Below the pieces are notes generated by a model that saw nothing but the letters and a program-made list of their open reading frames with translations, had not been told where the DNA came from and did not search any database. The translations under genes were made by a program, and so were the position numbers. From a virus, in the IMG/VR virus record IMGVR_UViG_3300024518_000353, positions 1-56,727 of that record: 56,727 bases of DNA, one strand, 5' to 3'. Below, piece after piece: positions 34,131 to 49,004 of the stretch. Position 1 is the stretch's first letter; each line of letters begins with the position of its first letter.

Positions 34131-34339
34131 TGTGGTGGGAAAAACTTAAAAAGAAATTTTCAGATGCAGATAATGTTATTGACTTTAGTGTTGATGTACT
34201 TATTATAATGTTTGATGTTCTAACTACACCACTTCTTATACCTATTAGAATAGGCAGGTATTATATCAAAGGATTTTTTAAAGCAATATGTAAAAGATTC
34301 TTAAAGAAAACTTATCATAGGTTGTATGATAAAGAATGA
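34127..34339 (+). CDS. Small membrane-associated protein (70 aa)
   Basis: A hydrophobic central segment (V-D-V-L-I-I-M-F-D-V-L-T-T-P-L-L-I-P-I) lies between basic ends. Its stop overlaps the ATG of iscA. Function unknown. It may act in lysis together with the preceding gene. Confidence 0.5.
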   Translation: MMWWEKLKKKFSDADNVIDFSVDVLIIMFDVLTTPLLIPIRIGRYYIKGFFKAICKRFLKKTYHRLYDKE

Positions 34340-34659
34340 CGTTAGTAAACTTAACAGATAAAGCAAAAGAACATCTAAAGAATCTTGCTAAAGACCACGA
34401 TAAAAAATATGTTCGTTTAGAAGTTAAAGGTGGTGGTTGTGCAGGTTTTAAATATGACTGGTCATTTGATAACTATATACAGGACAGTGATGATTTCCTA
34501 GAGTTAGATGGCTTTACATTATTAATAGATAAATCTAGTTTATTTTATTTAATGGGAATGACTATTGAATATAAGAAAGAAATATTTGGTAGCTTCTTAG
34601 AACTAAAGAATCCTAATGCAACAAGTAGTTGTGGTTGTGGAGAAAGTTTTGGAGTATGA
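34336..34659 (+). CDS. iscA: A-type iron-sulfur cluster carrier (IscA/ErpA-like)
   Basis: 107 residues with the three family cysteines: C35 in G-G-G-C-A-G-F, and C99 and C101 in S-C-G-C-G-E-S-F. It holds and transfers [2Fe-2S] or [4Fe-4S] clusters to client proteins in the cytoplasm. All ligand residues are intact, so it should be functional. It is coupled to iscU by an ATGA overlap at 34656 and to small membrane genes upstream. It looks like a host-derived auxiliary gene at the end of the late operon. Confidence 0.92.
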   Translation: MTLVNLTDKAKEHLKNLAKDHDKKYVRLEVKGGGCAGFKYDWSFDNYIQDSDDFLELDGFTLLIDKSSLFYLMGMTIEYKKEIFGSFLELKNPNATSSCGCGESFGV

Positions 34660-35051
34660 CATATAGTAAAGAATTATTAGACCATTATGAGAATCCTAAA
34701 AATGTAGGGTCAATGAATAAAGAAGATAAAGATGTAGGTACAGGTCTTGTTGGTGCACCAGCTTGTGGTGACGTTATGAAACTACAGATTAAAGTAAGTG
34801 ATGATTCAATAATTGAAGATGCTAAATTTAAGACATTTGGTTGTGGGTCTGCCATTGCTTCAAGTTCACTAATTACAGAGTGGGTAAAAGGTAAAAGCAT
34901 TGATGAAGCTGATTCAATTAAAAATACTGAAATAGCTAACCATCTCGCATTACCACCAGTTAAGATTCATTGTTCTATTTTAGCTGAAGATGCAATCAAG
35001 GCAGCAATTGCAGATTATAAAAAGAAAAATGAAAGTAAAACATTACTTTAG
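34656..35051 (+). CDS. iscU: Iron-sulfur cluster scaffold IscU
   Basis: 131 residues. Clusters are built on C37, C63 and C106 with D39 (A-C-G-D) and H105. The chaperone-binding L-P-P-V-K is at 99-103. These positions are the same as in E. coli IscU, and D-H-Y-E-N-P and G-A-P-A-C-G-D-V-M-K-L-Q-I are near-identical. The start at 34656 (ATGA overlap with iscA) is chosen over an in-frame upstream start. IscS, HscA/HscB and ferredoxin are absent, so host partners of the ISC type would be needed. Confidence 0.95.
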   Translation: MTYSKELLDHYENPKNVGSMNKEDKDVGTGLVGAPACGDVMKLQIKVSDDSIIEDAKFKTFGCGSAIASSSLITEWVKGKSIDEADSIKNTEIANHLALPPVKIHCSILAEDAIKAAIADYKKKNESKTLL

Positions 35052-35173: not shown

Positions 35174-35217
35174 AAAAAAATACCCCTAGTTATTAAGTTA
35201 GCTAGGGGTTTTTTATT
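35174..35217. terminator. Bidirectional terminator between convergent operons
   Basis: CCCCTAG (35183-35189) pairs with CTAGGGG (35202-35208). It is flanked by AAAAAAATA on the left and TTTTTTATTT on the right, so each strand has a stem followed by a U tract. It ends the rightward late operon and the leftward operon that finishes at 35233. Confidence 0.85.
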
Positions 35218-35232
35218 TAATGATTGTTCTAA

Positions 35233-35604
35233 TTATTTTTCTTTCCAAGTTTTAATACCTTTTTCAGCACCTCTACTTATAATGTAACCACCAATACCAA
35301 TTTGTAATAAGTCAAATAGTTTCATGATTACTTGGTCAGATAAATTTTCTGGATGTATTCCAAACCAATACATAAATAAAAGCATCAAGAAAGATAGCAT
35401 TGTTAATGGTCTCCAGTTACGTTGTAACCATCCTTCACCTTTGGCTTCAGCAACGACAACAGATGCAGCAGCTTTTTCTATATCTGCTGAATGTGTTACG
35501 AGTGCTTTGTTTAGTTCTGTCTGTGCTTTTTGTTGTGCAGCTTTATCAGGTATAACTCTGTCAATTACTTTACCTAGTATAGGTGCAATTAGATTTAACA
35601 ACAT
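35233..35604 (-). CDS. Holin of the GTA three-TM type
   Basis: 123 residues. The core G-E-G-W-L-Q-R-N-W-R-P-L-T-M-L is the signature of the gene-transfer-agent holin family (GTA_holin_3TM). Hydrophobic helices lie at about 68-84 and 93-110, with an N-terminal amphipathic helix. It should permeabilise the inner membrane so the M15 endolysin reaches peptidoglycan. It lies on the opposite strand from the virion genes and far from the endolysin gene (49962). Confidence 0.8.
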   Translation of the reverse strand: MLLNLIAPILGKVIDRVIPDKAAQQKAQTELNKALVTHSADIEKAAASVVVAEAKGEGWLQRNWRPLTMLSFLMLLFMYWFGIHPENLSDQVIMKLFDLLQIGIGGYIISRGAEKGIKTWKEK

Positions 35605-35644: not shown

Positions 35645-36220
35645 TTAAAAGAAAAGAGTAATTTTATTATTCTCTGGATTAATTTTACCCTTACCTTCTA
35701 AACAAATTAGTTTATTATCTAAGTTTAATTTAAAATATTGTTTATGAAAAGGTTTAACATGGAAATAAAAACTACCTACATATAGTGGTAAGTATTCTTT
35801 CTTATTACCAAATCTAGTTATATAAAATAATCCTGAACTTGCATTACCTATATGGATAGGTATTGTAAAATAAAAATCTGCATTATGTCCTAGATTAAAA
35901 TATGTTCCATCATTCTCAATGATTTCAAATCCTGGAATTGAATAGGAATTATCTTCAATTTCCTCAACATATATATTATTTAACATCTTTCTTATCTTAT
36001 AGAATAAGGAAGGAAACTTTTCAAAAAGAACAGGATTATTATTTAAACATTTTTGTTTATAACTTTTGTCATTATCTATAAGTTCTTTAGCTGAACCTAA
36101 AGATAATCTATTATTATATTTATTCCATGACTCTTCCAGTTCAAGAACAGACTGATGAATCGTATGACACGAAGTCTCATTTAAAAAATTTCTAACTGTT
36201 ATAGCTGATAGTATCTTCAT
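35645..36220 (-). CDS. Unknown protein coupled to the glycan-modifying fusion
   Basis: 191 residues, overlapping the end of the triple-fusion gene by 29 bases. The C-terminal half is strand-rich (F-Y-F-T-I-P-I-H-I-G and V-G-S-F-Y-F-H-V-K-P-F-H). This could be a small double-stranded beta-helix or cupin-like fold, with H-N-A-D as a possible metal site, but the motif is incomplete and no family is claimed. Context suggests surface-glycan modification. Confidence 0.55.
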   Translation of the reverse strand: MKILSAITVRNFLNETSCHTIHQSVLELEESWNKYNNRLSLGSAKELIDNDKSYKQKCLNNNPVLFEKFPSLFYKIRKMLNNIYVEEIEDNSYSIPGFEIIENDGTYFNLGHNADFYFTIPIHIGNASSGLFYITRFGNKKEYLPLYVGSFYFHVKPFHKQYFKLNLDNKLICLEGKGKINPENNKITLFF

Positions 36221-38471
36221 AATCAGGATGGTGCTCTCTTCCCCCAGTTTTCCATAACTCAGAAACTAATGTATCTTCACCATAAAATTCTATATGAATG
36301 TCAATATCTTTTCTCTGAAATAATTTCTCACAGTCTTGAGCCATAGCTAGTAACTCACCAGTTGTCCAAAACTTTTTGTTATTAGTAGTAACATGTAAAT
36401 ATTTTTTTCTACCTGTATCTTCTAATGCTTCTTTATCTTTAGGTTCAGGTACTGAACAATCAAAACCATATAGTTTAAAGTTTCTAAATCCTAACGTATG
36501 TCCAACACTTATTGCTCTCATTGCTGCACATGTACCACCAGTTAATAACACGGAGTTCTTTGGTATATCTAAATCTTTTGCAAGAACTACTTTATCTTTA
36601 GTGCTATTTGTACTTTCAATAATAGCATCTGAATATGCGTTCCAACCAATGATGTTTGCTTTCTTATCTTTTAAATGTTTAACAACTGAAACGTCAGTCA
36701 TTGATGATACAAAGAAAATAGTTTCATCAGGTACTTCTTTAAATAAATCTTTCCTAACAACACCATGTGTACTTGTGCCACCTATAGGTCTGGGGTCAAG
36801 TATGTTACAACCCCAAGGAATAATACCTTCTTTTAACAACATAGGTAATGAATGTTTAACACACATAATTTTATGATTAGAATGTTTTAAATAATCTTTA
36901 TACTTTAAAAAGGAAGGACCACCTGAAACTATAAGTAATGTTTCACCATGTGGTCTAGCTTTAATTAACCAATTTTTTATTTTCTTAATATTATTTTTTA
37001 TATTATTTTTAATATAATCTTTAGGCATACAGTCTTTAGGTTTGACAATAATAGGAACATGATTAAATTTTTCAGGTAAGGCAGGTAAGTTTTTATCATG
37101 AACTACAACACAAAGATGGGTAATACCTCCACCTACAACAGGGTCATATGAATGTAAAATTTTTCTTCTATACTTCTTATCTATTTTATCAAAGATTTTA
37201 TTTGTTCCTTTATGTTCTTCAGCAACATTTTTATCTTGTTCATCTTTAGTAAAGTAATCATCAAACACCACAAGTGGTAATCCTTTTGTCATACTATAAT
37301 CATGATGAACAGTTTCAAAGCTATGCCCACCATCAAGATAAGCCATATCAAAATCTTTCTGTTCAGTTAATGTAGTTTTAGTATCACCTTTAACTAAATC
37401 AAAATCAAAATCTTTATTCATTTTGTCTTTGACATATTTTTTAAATTCATTTAATCTTTTCTCAACTGCTTGATAAAGATTATGTGGTTTAGTATTTAAT
37501 TCTGTTTGGTCAGTAAATTCATCTGCGTCTTCAAATAAATCATAACCTTTATAATAAACTTTATCTACATTGTCAAAAGCTGCCAATGCCATTTCGATAG
37601 CTCTACCACCATTCCAAGTACCTGTCTCAAGTAACCTTGAAAACTTGTAATGTCTAATGACATCTGCCAATTGTTTATACCTTTTTGGACCAACGACATC
37701 AGGTGTGGTCTTATCTGATAGGAGTTGTTTTTTATTTCCTTTAAAGTGCTGAAAGAACTGCGATAAAGGAGAGTTATTAAAAGCATCAAGACCTCTTACG
37801 TCAGGGGTTAAGTTATGTTTTTTAATGCCATGAGCATTATAAAAATTAAATAGTCTTTCAAATATAAAACCATCATGCCATTCTCTATAAGAAAGAACTT
37901 CGTGACTATCATATATACCTCTCATATCTAATAGTAAATCTAAAGGGGGAGTGTTGTTTAAATTAAAAGCCATAAAAGATGTCTCGCTATAGTCAACATC
38001 TTTTCTGCCCAGATGAACTAACTCAGAATTAAGGGGAATAATTCCAAGAAAGTCTTTTTTACTCACAGGTTTATTAAGGATAATGTCAGCATCTAACCAA
38101 ACAACCCACCCCACCTGCACACCTTTCTCTACTAACTTGAAGGAAAAGTCAGTCAAGGCATACACTTTGTGACACCATTTAATGGCATCTAATCTCCAAT
38201 TATAAGGCATGCGTTTGCCTTCAGTACCATCATGTACTTTCATTTCTTCTCTGTACTTTAACATAGAAGGAATATCATTTAGATTTTTGAATGTTATCTT
38301 ATTTGATTTGGGAAACTCTTTTATTTTTTCTTTATCAAAGTCATGATAGTAAGCAGTTAAATGTAAATCATCAGCAAGAAATTTATTAGCTGACTCAATC
38401 ATTTTCTTTGCATAAGTTTCCCATCCTTTAGGACTAAAGGAAGTTACGATATTTATTGTGTCTTTACTCAT
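36192..38471 (-). CDS. Triple fusion: glycosyltransferase - methyltransferase - DUF115
   Basis: 759 residues. About 1-250 is a GT-A-like glycosyltransferase with D-A-D at 127-129 (V-V-W-L-D-A-D). About 260-470 is a class I SAM methyltransferase (L-L-E-T-G-T-W-N-G-G at 280-289; D-M-A-Y-L-D-G-G-H at 375-383). About 490-759 is a DUF115/MptE-like domain (L-L-I-V-S-G-G-P-S at 512-520; L-Y-G-F-D-C-S) found in sugar or flagellin glycosylation proteins. ATG 38471 is chosen because it starts one base after the upstream stop; longer frames overlap the neighbour. It probably modifies a surface glycan of host or virion. Confidence 0.8.
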   Translation of the reverse strand: MSKDTINIVTSFSPKGWETYAKKMIESANKFLADDLHLTAYYHDFDKEKIKEFPKSNKITFKNLNDIPSMLKYREEMKVHDGTEGKRMPYNWRLDAIKWCHKVYALTDFSFKLVEKGVQVGWVVWLDADIILNKPVSKKDFLGIIPLNSELVHLGRKDVDYSETSFMAFNLNNTPPLDLLLDMRGIYDSHEVLSYREWHDGFIFERLFNFYNAHGIKKHNLTPDVRGLDAFNNSPLSQFFQHFKGNKKQLLSDKTTPDVVGPKRYKQLADVIRHYKFSRLLETGTWNGGRAIEMALAAFDNVDKVYYKGYDLFEDADEFTDQTELNTKPHNLYQAVEKRLNEFKKYVKDKMNKDFDFDLVKGDTKTTLTEQKDFDMAYLDGGHSFETVHHDYSMTKGLPLVVFDDYFTKDEQDKNVAEEHKGTNKIFDKIDKKYRRKILHSYDPVVGGGITHLCVVVHDKNLPALPEKFNHVPIIVKPKDCMPKDYIKNNIKNNIKKIKNWLIKARPHGETLLIVSGGPSFLKYKDYLKHSNHKIMCVKHSLPMLLKEGIIPWGCNILDPRPIGGTSTHGVVRKDLFKEVPDETIFFVSSMTDVSVVKHLKDKKANIIGWNAYSDAIIESTNSTKDKVVLAKDLDIPKNSVLLTGGTCAAMRAISVGHTLGFRNFKLYGFDCSVPEPKDKEALEDTGRKKYLHVTTNNKKFWTTGELLAMAQDCEKLFQRKDIDIHIEFYGEDTLVSELWKTGGREHHPDYEDTISYNS

Positions 38472-38472
38472 A

Positions 38473-39306
38473 CTACATCTGTACCATTTTAGTAGGTCTT
38501 GAATCTTCGATAGTATTTCTATATAGTAGTTTCTCATCTTCCCAGTCTTGTGCAAACTGCATGTCTGTAAACTTACCACCAAACCAAGGACCACCAAGAG
38601 AATAATGTATAGCATTGGGTGATGCGTCAAGGTTTGAAACTTCAGGAATATGATTCCAACTAGCAGGTATCTCACCTATCTGGTTATCACTTGTCCATTT
38701 AAATTGATGAAGGTCTAAACCTTTCATAGTATTTACATCATCACTTGTTAAATTTTTTACATCTTTATGTTTCATATTAAATAACATTAGTGAAGACCAT
38801 AATTTCTTTTCATATCCTAGTTGTTTTTGATTGTCCATCTTAGTATCTTCAGTAGGTTGCCAATCAAACTTAACACAGGCAACAGCTTTATCAGCATGGT
38901 TCTCTTCTACAAACTTAAATAGTTTATCTACATCTCTAAGAAATAAAAAATCACAATCAACAAACATTACCCAATTTTTAACATTGTTTAATCTAGCAAT
39001 AGCAGGACACAAGAATCTTGTATGACTAAACTCTGTTGAAAAAGGTTTATCATCTAGGACATCATACTTTTGTCCTTCAGTATCTTCTCTCCATTCTCTA
39101 GTAAAATGTCCACTATTTCTTAAATGCCTGACATTAAGTTCAACTGCAGTTAAAGGTCGTGAACTATGCCTAATTAATGAATGTTCACAAACTTTATAAG
39201 CAATGTCTTCACGAGCATCATAACCTATAAAAACAAAGTTAGTTTGTTCTTTAGGTAATGGATGAATTGTTTCTTCTTTCTCTGTAGTTCTTGCACTTAT
39301 TAACAT
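38473..39306 (-). CDS. GT8-like glycosyltransferase
   Basis: 277 residues behind AAGGAATAAAT. It has a V-D-C-D-F-L-F-L-R-D motif (D-x-D, metal and sugar-nucleotide binding) and a C-terminal N-A-I-H-Y-S-L-G-G-P-W-F, as in GT8-type retaining transferases. It is one base from the fusion gene and probably acts on the same glycan. A strong promoter lies about 130 bases upstream. Confidence 0.8.
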   Translation of the reverse strand: MLISARTTEKEETIHPLPKEQTNFVFIGYDAREDIAYKVCEHSLIRHSSRPLTAVELNVRHLRNSGHFTREWREDTEGQKYDVLDDKPFSTEFSHTRFLCPAIARLNNVKNWVMFVDCDFLFLRDVDKLFKFVEENHADKAVACVKFDWQPTEDTKMDNQKQLGYEKKLWSSLMLFNMKHKDVKNLTSDDVNTMKGLDLHQFKWTSDNQIGEIPASWNHIPEVSNLDASPNAIHYSLGGPWFGGKFTDMQFAQDWEDEKLLYRNTIEDSRPTKMVQM

Positions 39307-39308
39307 AT

Positions 39309-39455
39309 TTATTCCTTATCTTTTTCTGTTAGGTCACACCAGTTACAAGGTTTCCCCTTTTCAATACCCATAACATCTTGTTCGACTTTACAATAATGCT
39401 CCCACATTTGGGAAGAATTATTTTTTATAATGTAATTATATAATTTTTTAAACAT
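39309..39455 (-). CDS. Small C-x2-C protein (48 aa)
   Basis: An open frame between the RNR gene and the glycosyltransferase. The end contains H-Y-C-K-V-E-Q-D and K-P-C-N-W-C-D, so C plus C-x2-C may bind zinc or iron. The promoter at 39435-39463 overlaps its first codons. A shorter form starting at the ATG at 39407 would fit that transcript. Not recognised. Confidence 0.45.
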   Translation of the reverse strand: MFKKLYNYIIKNNSSQMWEHYCKVEQDVMGIEKGKPCNWCDLTEKDKE

Positions 39456-39463
39456 AGTGTCAA
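39435..39463 (-). promoter_or_regulatory. Perfect-consensus sigma70 promoter for the glycan cassette
   Basis: On the - strand, TTGACA (39458-39463), 17 bases, then TATAAT (39435-39440). Both hexamers and the spacing are ideal. It would drive 39306-35233 strongly by host RNA polymerase without phage factors. Confidence 0.75.
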
Positions 39464-41422: not shown

Positions 41423-41992
41423 TTAAAATGAAATTTTATAACCAATGCCTAGAGCATTGTATTGACTGTCACCCCTTTTAATTTTTGTTCCCAATGAAAC
41501 AGAGTTATTGTCGTTAAGTTTATATGAAACACTAACTTTATAAGTAGTGTCTGTTTGATTATGTGAAGTATCAAAACTGTCTCTGAATCTTACTCCAGTT
41601 TTTAGACTCCATTTATTATTCAGTTTATAATTAACACCAGGTTCAATAGTCCAGTACCCATAGTCTGCGTCTCTTACAAACTTCATGCCTGAACCTGCTC
41701 TTGTATATAAACTAAATTCATTATTTAGTTTTAAGTTACCAATCATTGCTACCTCTGCACGTTGGTCATTACTTGTACTACTATCTTTTAGTTTAGTTCT
41801 TGTTTTAATTTCAGCAGTAAAAGTATCATTTAATTTCTTCCCAACTTTTAATCCATATTCTTTAGAATTTTTTCCACCATTTAATCCATCTTGTATTCCC
41901 ATGTTTACTCCTACATATATATCTTTTGCTGCTAAAGATTTAGATAATAACATAATAAAAACTACAACAATTATTATAATTAATTTTTTCAT
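41423..41992 (-). CDS. Phage-encoded outer membrane beta-barrel
   Basis: 189 residues with a Sec signal peptide (M-K-K, hydrophobic core, cleavage near A-A-K at about 22), then alternating strand pattern (about eight strands; for example Y-G-L-K-V-G-K-K-L-N-D-T-F-T-A-E-I-K) and a C-terminal phenylalanine (I-G-Y-K-I-S-F), the usual BAM signal. It should insert in the outer membrane. Lambda Lom is a known phage-encoded precedent. A role in superinfection exclusion or receptor masking is inferred. Confidence 0.75.
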   Translation of the reverse strand: MKKLIIIIVVVFIMLLSKSLAAKDIYVGVNMGIQDGLNGGKNSKEYGLKVGKKLNDTFTAEIKTRTKLKDSSTSNDQRAEVAMIGNLKLNNEFSLYTRAGSGMKFVRDADYGYWTIEPGVNYKLNNKWSLKTGVRFRDSFDTSHNQTDTTYKVSVSYKLNDNNSVSLGTKIKRGDSQYNALGIGYKISF

Positions 41993-48727: not shown

Positions 48728-49004
48728 TGTCCCCTTCCTTAAATCCTTTCATGATTAATTGTTTTCTATTTTGTTCATCATTATAAACTTGATTAATTAA
48801 TTTGTCAAGATACCATCTTGCTTTTCTTAAATCTTCAAGTGGATTACCTTTGTAATCATATCTCCAAAGATACTTAACAACATTTGCTTTTAAGTACCCT
48901 AGAAATTCTTTGTCTGACATTGATGCTTCAATAGCTTGAATACATTCAATGCCATGCTTATTGTAGTGTCTAGGATTATTTACATTATCATATTGTTCAG
49001 TCAT
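48714..49004 (-). CDS. DUF3310 family protein
   Basis: 96 residues with N-N-P-R-H-Y-N-K-H-G-I-E-C-I-Q-A-I-E, then L-K-A-N-V-V-K-Y-L-W-R-Y and D-L-R-K-A-R-W-Y-L-D-K-L. This is the DUF3310 signature common in phage early and replication regions. Function is unknown; it is sometimes viewed as a nucleotide-kinase-like accessory. Confidence 0.8.
   Translation of the reverse strand: MTEQYDNVNNPRHYNKHGIECIQAIEASMSDKEFLGYLKANVVKYLWRYDYKGNPLEDLRKARWYLDKLINQVYNDEQNRKQLIMKGFKEGDNDHT

Follow-up and report, generated by a model that had tools for sequence, protein, structure and literature searches.

A GT8-like glycosyltransferase and a three-domain fusion protein form a conserved, putative glycan-modifying cassette in a marine phage lineage

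Introduction

In GT6 glycosyltransferases the catalytic Glu is located right after a W-H-D motif. The Maf flagellin glycosyltransferases possess a catalytic domain of pfam01973 that resembles the sialyltransferase Cst-II, and an N-terminal domain with weak resemblance to methyltransferases, according to PMC11339370. Here we describe a gene cassette that joins a GT6-like domain, a methyltransferase domain and a PF01973 domain in one protein of 759 amino acids (aa), encoded beside a GT8-like glycosyltransferase in the IMG/VR virus record IMGVR_UViG_3300024518_000353. The whole stretch of 56727 bases, with a GC content of 32%, was analysed and is referred to as the window. The two proteins probably carry out glycan synthesis and O-methylation, as judged from their sequences and their company in other phages.

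Results

A three-domain fusion protein and its GT8-like partner

An earlier note on this DNA had reported a 759-aa open reading frame (ORF) lying one base from a GT8-like ORF on the strand opposite to the virion genes, and these coordinates proved correct. The features of the pair are as follows.

38473..39306, minus strand: GT8-like glycosyltransferase, 277 aa (PF01501 below cut-off, phrog_28018)
36192..38471, minus strand: fusion protein, 759 aa (Pfam, alignment, AlphaFold model)
37722..38471, minus strand: GT-A domain of GT6-like fold, fusion residues 1-250 (Foldseek, invariant motifs, stand-alone homologue in phage Mosig)
38085-38093, minus strand: DAD motif, fusion residues 127-129 (invariant in 35 relatives)
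37077..37709, minus strand: S-adenosylmethionine (SAM) methyltransferase domain, fusion residues 255-465 (PF13578, TylF, O-methyltransferase folds)
36237..37034, minus strand: MptE-like/DUF115 domain, fusion residues 480-745 (PF01973, Foldseek matches to Maf 5mu5 and HPPK 8sd5)

The fusion of three domains, also claimed in the earlier note, was confirmed by two routes: Pfam gave Methyltransf_24 and MptE-like, and AlphaFold with Foldseek gave the GT-A domain. In the Pfam search both families passed their cut-offs, PF13578 at residues 281-395 (3.3e-6; 28.4 bits against 26.3) and PF01973 at residues 489-675 (1.7e-17; 64.1 bits against 34.6). Each of the 35 aligned relatives matched both families (E 0.1 or better), and 16 of them also matched TylF, a sugar O-methyltransferase family. 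The N-terminal domain of the window protein matched no Pfam family, and a sequence search of the PDB gave no meaningful match.

The AlphaFold model of the fusion reached a predicted local distance difference test score (pLDDT) of 79 and a predicted template modelling (TM) score (pTM) of 0.42; thus the domains are credible while their mutual arrangement is not. Foldseek with the whole model placed Maf 5mu5 first (E 1.1e-9), followed by GT6 enzymes, O-methyltransferases and the 6-hydroxymethylpterin diphosphokinase (HPPK) of M. jannaschii. As the N-terminal domain matched many GT6 chains at E about 1e-6, with TM-scores by target length of 0.41-0.59, the model supports its assignment as a GT-A domain of GT6-type fold. 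Putative catalytic, SAM-binding and MptE motifs were invariant in the 35 relatives, among them DAD (127-129), EWHDG (197-201), GTW-NGG (284-289), DGG (380-382) and GGTC (645-648). The residue after WHD is the invariant G201 in these relatives and S, C or G in distant homologues. Because no Glu follows WHD, the domain was named GT6-like and not a GT6 member. Values of dN/dS (nonsynonymous to synonymous substitution rates) among relatives ranged from 0.04 to 0.29, mostly near 0.1, in each domain, and all three domains are under purifying selection. A reading of the frame from a GTG start (827 aa) was rejected, because it would extend into GT8 and because the alignment of the relatives begins at the ATG at 38471.

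The GT8-like ORF scored 21.3 bits against PF01501, just under the Pfam cut-off of 24.3, and matched phrog_28018 at 1.7e-61. Its homologues in Mosig (contig L083) and contig L210 passed the GT8 cut-off. Further homologues are found close to a tail gene in CcrColossus and amid the virion genes of ctDrO704. Comparison of the fusion with the window's own GT8 by hhalign gave nothing.

Distribution and inheritance of the cassette

A first scan detected 302 relatives. In the best 80 of them, which were fetched, the fusion was essentially full length, with 51-86% identity. A second scan, led by a bacterial two-domain homologue, added 76 further three-domain ORFs, some of them on contigs of the first set. 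Both scans together placed the three-domain protein in roughly 145 metagenomic viral contigs. GT8 stood directly upstream of the fusion in all first-scan contigs reaching that far (78/78). Clustering likewise found GT8 in 78 of the 80 first-scan loci, the remaining two contigs starting inside the cassette. When the scan was anchored on ribonucleotide reductase (RNR), GT8 and the fusion were present in 23/23 near relatives whose sequence extends 3.8 kb or more downstream, and among the RNR relatives at a greater distance 0 of 25 had the fusion. Within its lineage the cassette is fixed, not an occasional accessory.

The portal comparison used a hand-picked set of twenty records, two of which were shorter (about 21 kb). 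Of the ten longer records whose portal was of the window type (60% or more), eight contained the cassette. The two without it look like fragments, as one shows no PolA and the other has PolA near its end. The PolA-related records G015 and G018, which have another virion module, were without the cassette. The cassette tracks the window-type portal and not PolA, and is co-inherited with one virion module. Record L132, with a window-type TerL and a portal fragment, carries the cassette on the same strand as the preceding large ORF.

In bacterial and archaeal genomes, one match was a phage contig in a Sneathiella metagenome-assembled genome (MAG). Another was a two-domain gene for GT-A and methyltransferase on a Thalassobaculaceae MAG contig (L088:7995-9314; 439 aa, 33%), located beside transporter genes, which is possibly a cellular relative or the source of the first two fusion domains.

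Two side observations were made among the relatives. Contig L099 (106894 bases) has two PolA, two portal and two TerL genes, and probably represents two phage genomes joined in assembly. In L041, L049, L079 and similar loci, genes resembling 2-oxoglutarate (2OG)-Fe(II) oxygenase and Hsp20, named by eye, lie between RNR and GT8.

Split equivalents in other phages

In Mosig and related contigs the GT-A and GT8 genes are separate members of one cluster, which in Mosig also holds FkbM methyltransferases and a sulfotransferase; the Mosig GT-A gene is a stand-alone homologue of the fusion's N-terminal domain. In the freshwater-type contigs L210, L239 and L246, the GT-A gene lies a few kb from the GT8 gene amid further sugar genes. 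L210 encodes an FkbM methyltransferase, together with a fusion of a cytidylyltransferase-like domain and the C-terminal domain of mannose-6-phosphate isomerase, and L246 encodes a GDP-mannose 4,6-dehydratase and a GT25 enzyme. GDP-mannose 4,6-dehydratase also occurs close to the cassette itself in L096. This company of sugar genes is the strongest evidence for glycan chemistry. As a separate observation, GT8/GT-A genes are located near RNR in both podovirus-like and T4-like phages (Mosig, L221 and the window).

Predicted transcription unit

From RNR towards the convergent virion genes, the minus strand carries the GT8-like gene, the fusion, a 191-aa ORF and a holin gene. The further features of this region are listed below.

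39435..39463, minus strand: putative sigma-70-type promoter, TTGACA-N17-TATAAT (12/12 match)
39309..39455, minus strand: 48-aa ORF between RNR and GT8, its start overlapping the promoter -10 (ORF list)
35645..36220, minus strand: 191-aa ORF, overlapping the fusion by 29 nt (close relatives only)
35233..35604, minus strand: holin, GTA_holin_3TM (PF11351 3.9e-10; phrog_3427 holin 5e-25)
35182..35209, no strand assigned: terminator-like stem-loop between the convergent modules (11-bp stem, T run on the plus strand)

The perfect-consensus promoter noted earlier before the cassette was thus recovered, just past the RNR stop. The window contains two exact copies of TTGACA-17-TATAAT, and shuffled sequences average 1.55 even when one mismatch is allowed. 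The other perfect copy is at 48780-48808 on the minus strand, among early genes. Promoters matching 11-12 of 12 positions lie 24-35 nt before GT8 in 11 of 96 non-redundant relative regions, compared with 0.2% in mononucleotide shuffles. Promoter conservation in the nearest relatives was not counted, since the -10 match often falls inside the ribosome-binding site and start region.

The promoter past the RNR stop and the stem-loop past the holin together delimit a predicted unit of GT8, fusion, 191-aa ORF and holin, and these four genes are predicted to be co-transcribed. The holin is probably the last gene of this unit; the stem-loop, as read from its sequence, may also serve the minus strand. 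In five relatives the slot of the 48-aa ORF is filled by an ORF of 57-58 aa (cluster c39), with homology judged by eye. The 191-aa ORF matched no family in Pfam, PHROGs or NCBIfam, and its structure model (pLDDT 54) was too poor to use. TerS, which occupies its slot in other relatives, was ruled out as a homologue by alignment.

The window genome

The window encodes tailed-phage families including TerL, portal, major head protein, PolA, primase/helicase and an RNR with a B12-type (class II) domain in Pfam. Its PolA is nearest to those of Pelagibacter phages HTVC115P, HTVC104P and HTVC103P (about 50%), and its portal to those of 023Pt_psg01, DSL-LC04, HTVC027P and HTVC023P (41-44%). With tblastn at 1e-4, HTVC115P matched replication-side genes of the window only (28-60%), and none of its virion genes. 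Because the replication side resembles HTVC115P and the portal is nearest to other phages, the window is a mosaic, with SAR11 phages among its cultured relatives. Judging from these relatives, its host may be SAR11-related.

Two further loci deserve mention. Adjoining RNR, a 189-aa outer-membrane beta-barrel protein (41423-41992, minus strand; PF13505 1.4e-8) has a signal-peptide-like start and is a phage-encoded candidate for host-surface change. At the end of the virion module (34336-35051, plus strand), a Fe-S_biosyn/HesB-type gene (8.7e-19) adjoins a NifU_N gene (1.4e-53); this Fe-S cluster assembly pair is present in about half of the close relatives.

Discussion

Glycan building and methylation are well supported by the domains, the invariant motifs, the gene pairing and the company of the homologues. 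The earlier proposal that a sugar is built and methylated on host surface or virion is thus partly supported, in its chemical part. As a tentative proposal, to which we give slightly less than even odds, the pair would form one sugar-transfer system with a virion protein as acceptor. The GT8 protein and the GT6-fold domain would each transfer a hexose-type sugar, with nucleotide sugars of the host as donors, and the methyltransferase domain would O-methylate the product. The MptE-like domain, a member of the Pfam family of the Maf protein O-glycosyltransferase catalytic domain, might add or anchor another sugar. The acceptor would be a virion protein from the same cell, decorated in the cytoplasm late in infection. 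We infer the catalysis, the step order, the donor sugars and, above all, the acceptor.

A virion target is favoured by the fixed occurrence of the cassette, its predicted late co-transcription with a holin, its inheritance together with one virion module and the presence of a Maf-type domain. Several points weigh against it. Each of these lines is indirect, and the late timing is itself a prediction from promoter and gene order. The cassette had no match in HTVC027P and HTVC023P, although their portal is of the same type (about 43%). The split cluster of Mosig adjoins RNR and not virion genes, and the nucleotide-sugar genes of the split clusters fit lipopolysaccharide (LPS) as well. The phage GT-A domains have G, C or S after WHD instead of the GT6-type Glu. 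Finally, similar GT8 genes are read as host LPS modification by the pelagimyophage authors (PMC7029224).

We lean towards a virion protein as the target, with the host surface as a close rival. It is only somewhat less likely that the same chemistry places a methylated sugar on a host surface glycan (LPS core or O-chain) and changes the receptor, for example excluding rival phages. GT8 is mainly an LPS-biosynthesis family, and modification of the host O-chain is what PMC7029224 proposes; the split clusters, with their genes for GDP-mannose dehydratase, GT25 and nucleotidyltransferase, and the beta-barrel protein encoded in the window point the same way. Against a host-surface role, the ORFs scanned included neither a Gtr-type flippase nor another membrane partner, the lineage has the cassette as a fixed trait, and a predicted unit ending in a holin would be late for surface remodelling. 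The block to superinfection suggested by the earlier note received no direct support: a fixed feature, predicted to be co-transcribed with a holin as a late gene, does not have the usual profile of a superinfection-exclusion gene, although exclusion is possible if the host surface is the target.

Two readings outside glycan modification were also weighed. Glycosylation of phage DNA against restriction would suit the position of the cassette beside RNR, the split pair near RNR in Mosig and L221, and the 2OG-Fe(II)-oxygenase-like gene, identified by eye, that many relatives carry nearby. The window's own group lacks that gene, the window ORFs scanned yielded neither a pyrimidine hydroxymethylase nor a TET/JBP oxygenase, and the homologues accompany surface-glycan enzymes; hence we consider this reading very improbable. 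The Pfam name of PF01973 and the Foldseek match to HPPK 8sd5 of M. jannaschii (TM-score 0.65, by length of the target) would suit a 6-hydroxymethylpterin diphosphokinase activity of the MptE-like domain and a function of the protein in folate/pterin metabolism. Such a role, which we regard as the least credible of all, leaves unexplained the fusion to GT-A and O-methyltransferase domains and the constant GT8 partner, and the best whole-model match is Maf, whose catalytic domain belongs to the same Pfam family.

If the virion-directed proposal is true, a widespread marine phage lineage has, as a fixed and not an accessory trait, a sugar chemistry of its own that takes up about 3 kb of a 57 kb genome. 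By their constant association, GT8 and the three-domain fusion offer a compact system, suited to expression, in which the function of phage-encoded glycans could be studied, with particle protection, adsorption aid and host-surface change as candidate roles. The cassette also places in a glycan context the phage MptE-like/DUF115 domain, which is often annotated in phages as pterin kinase only. In its most specific form, the proposal is that two soluble proteins, one of them combining three activities in a single polypeptide, act as a cytoplasmic machine and assemble an O-methylated oligosaccharide straight onto virion protein, and that this machine is fixed in a widespread uncultured marine lineage with SAR11 phages among its nearest cultured relatives. 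We put it forward as a speculative possibility.

Comparison with known systems

A full-length homologue of the fusion is already in UniProt under another name. A0A6J7X5Q0 (uncultured Caudovirales phage, UniProt/BFVD; 714 aa) has the same overall architecture, aligns with the 759-aa model over 756 columns at 33% identity, and is named 'Methyltransferase domain containing protein' after the methyltransferase domain only. No published description of the fusion was found within a partial coverage of the literature. The main text of PMC8528129, on HTVC103P-type and related metagenome genomes, leaves glycosyltransferase and methyltransferase genes unmentioned.

The Maf flagellin glycosyltransferases (5mu5) have the PF01973 domain in common with the fusion, and the order of methyltransferase then MptE-like domain may parallel the Maf layout described in PMC11339370. 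Since the TM-scores to 5mu5 are low (0.26-0.30), the fold type alone is shared. Unlike Maf, the fusion has an extra GT-A domain, a recognisable methyltransferase and no flagellar context; Pfam and PHROGs detected no flagellar genes among the window ORFs scanned. The GT6 alpha-1,3-galactosyltransferases and bacterial GT6 enzymes (1g8o, 4ayl) share with it the GT-A fold (E about 1e-6 to 1e-5) and the D-x-D and W-H-D motifs, at an identity of about 9-15%.

Phage Gtr cassettes for O-antigen modification have a GtrA flippase and a GtrB bactoprenol glucosyltransferase beside the serotype transferase; neither family was found among the window ORFs scanned with Pfam and PHROGs, a set that covered part of the small ORFs. 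With tblastn, the MptE-like domain alone had no match in cultured phages. CcrColossus, a Caulobacter phage, has a glycosyltransferase cluster (gp126-gp131) without the fusion; it opens with a sialyltransferase-like gene that immediately follows a tail gene, and it includes a GT8 homologue, gp129 (44%), and its gp126 matched the MptE-like domain marginally in hhalign (E 0.013). The pelagimyophage clusters (Mosig) place a GT-A homologue beside a GT8 homologue and methyltransferases, as in the window. They differ in having separate genes, FkbM-type methyltransferases instead of Methyltransf_24, a sulfotransferase and no detected MptE-like gene. We rate the cassette as a variant of already known phage-encoded glycan modification.

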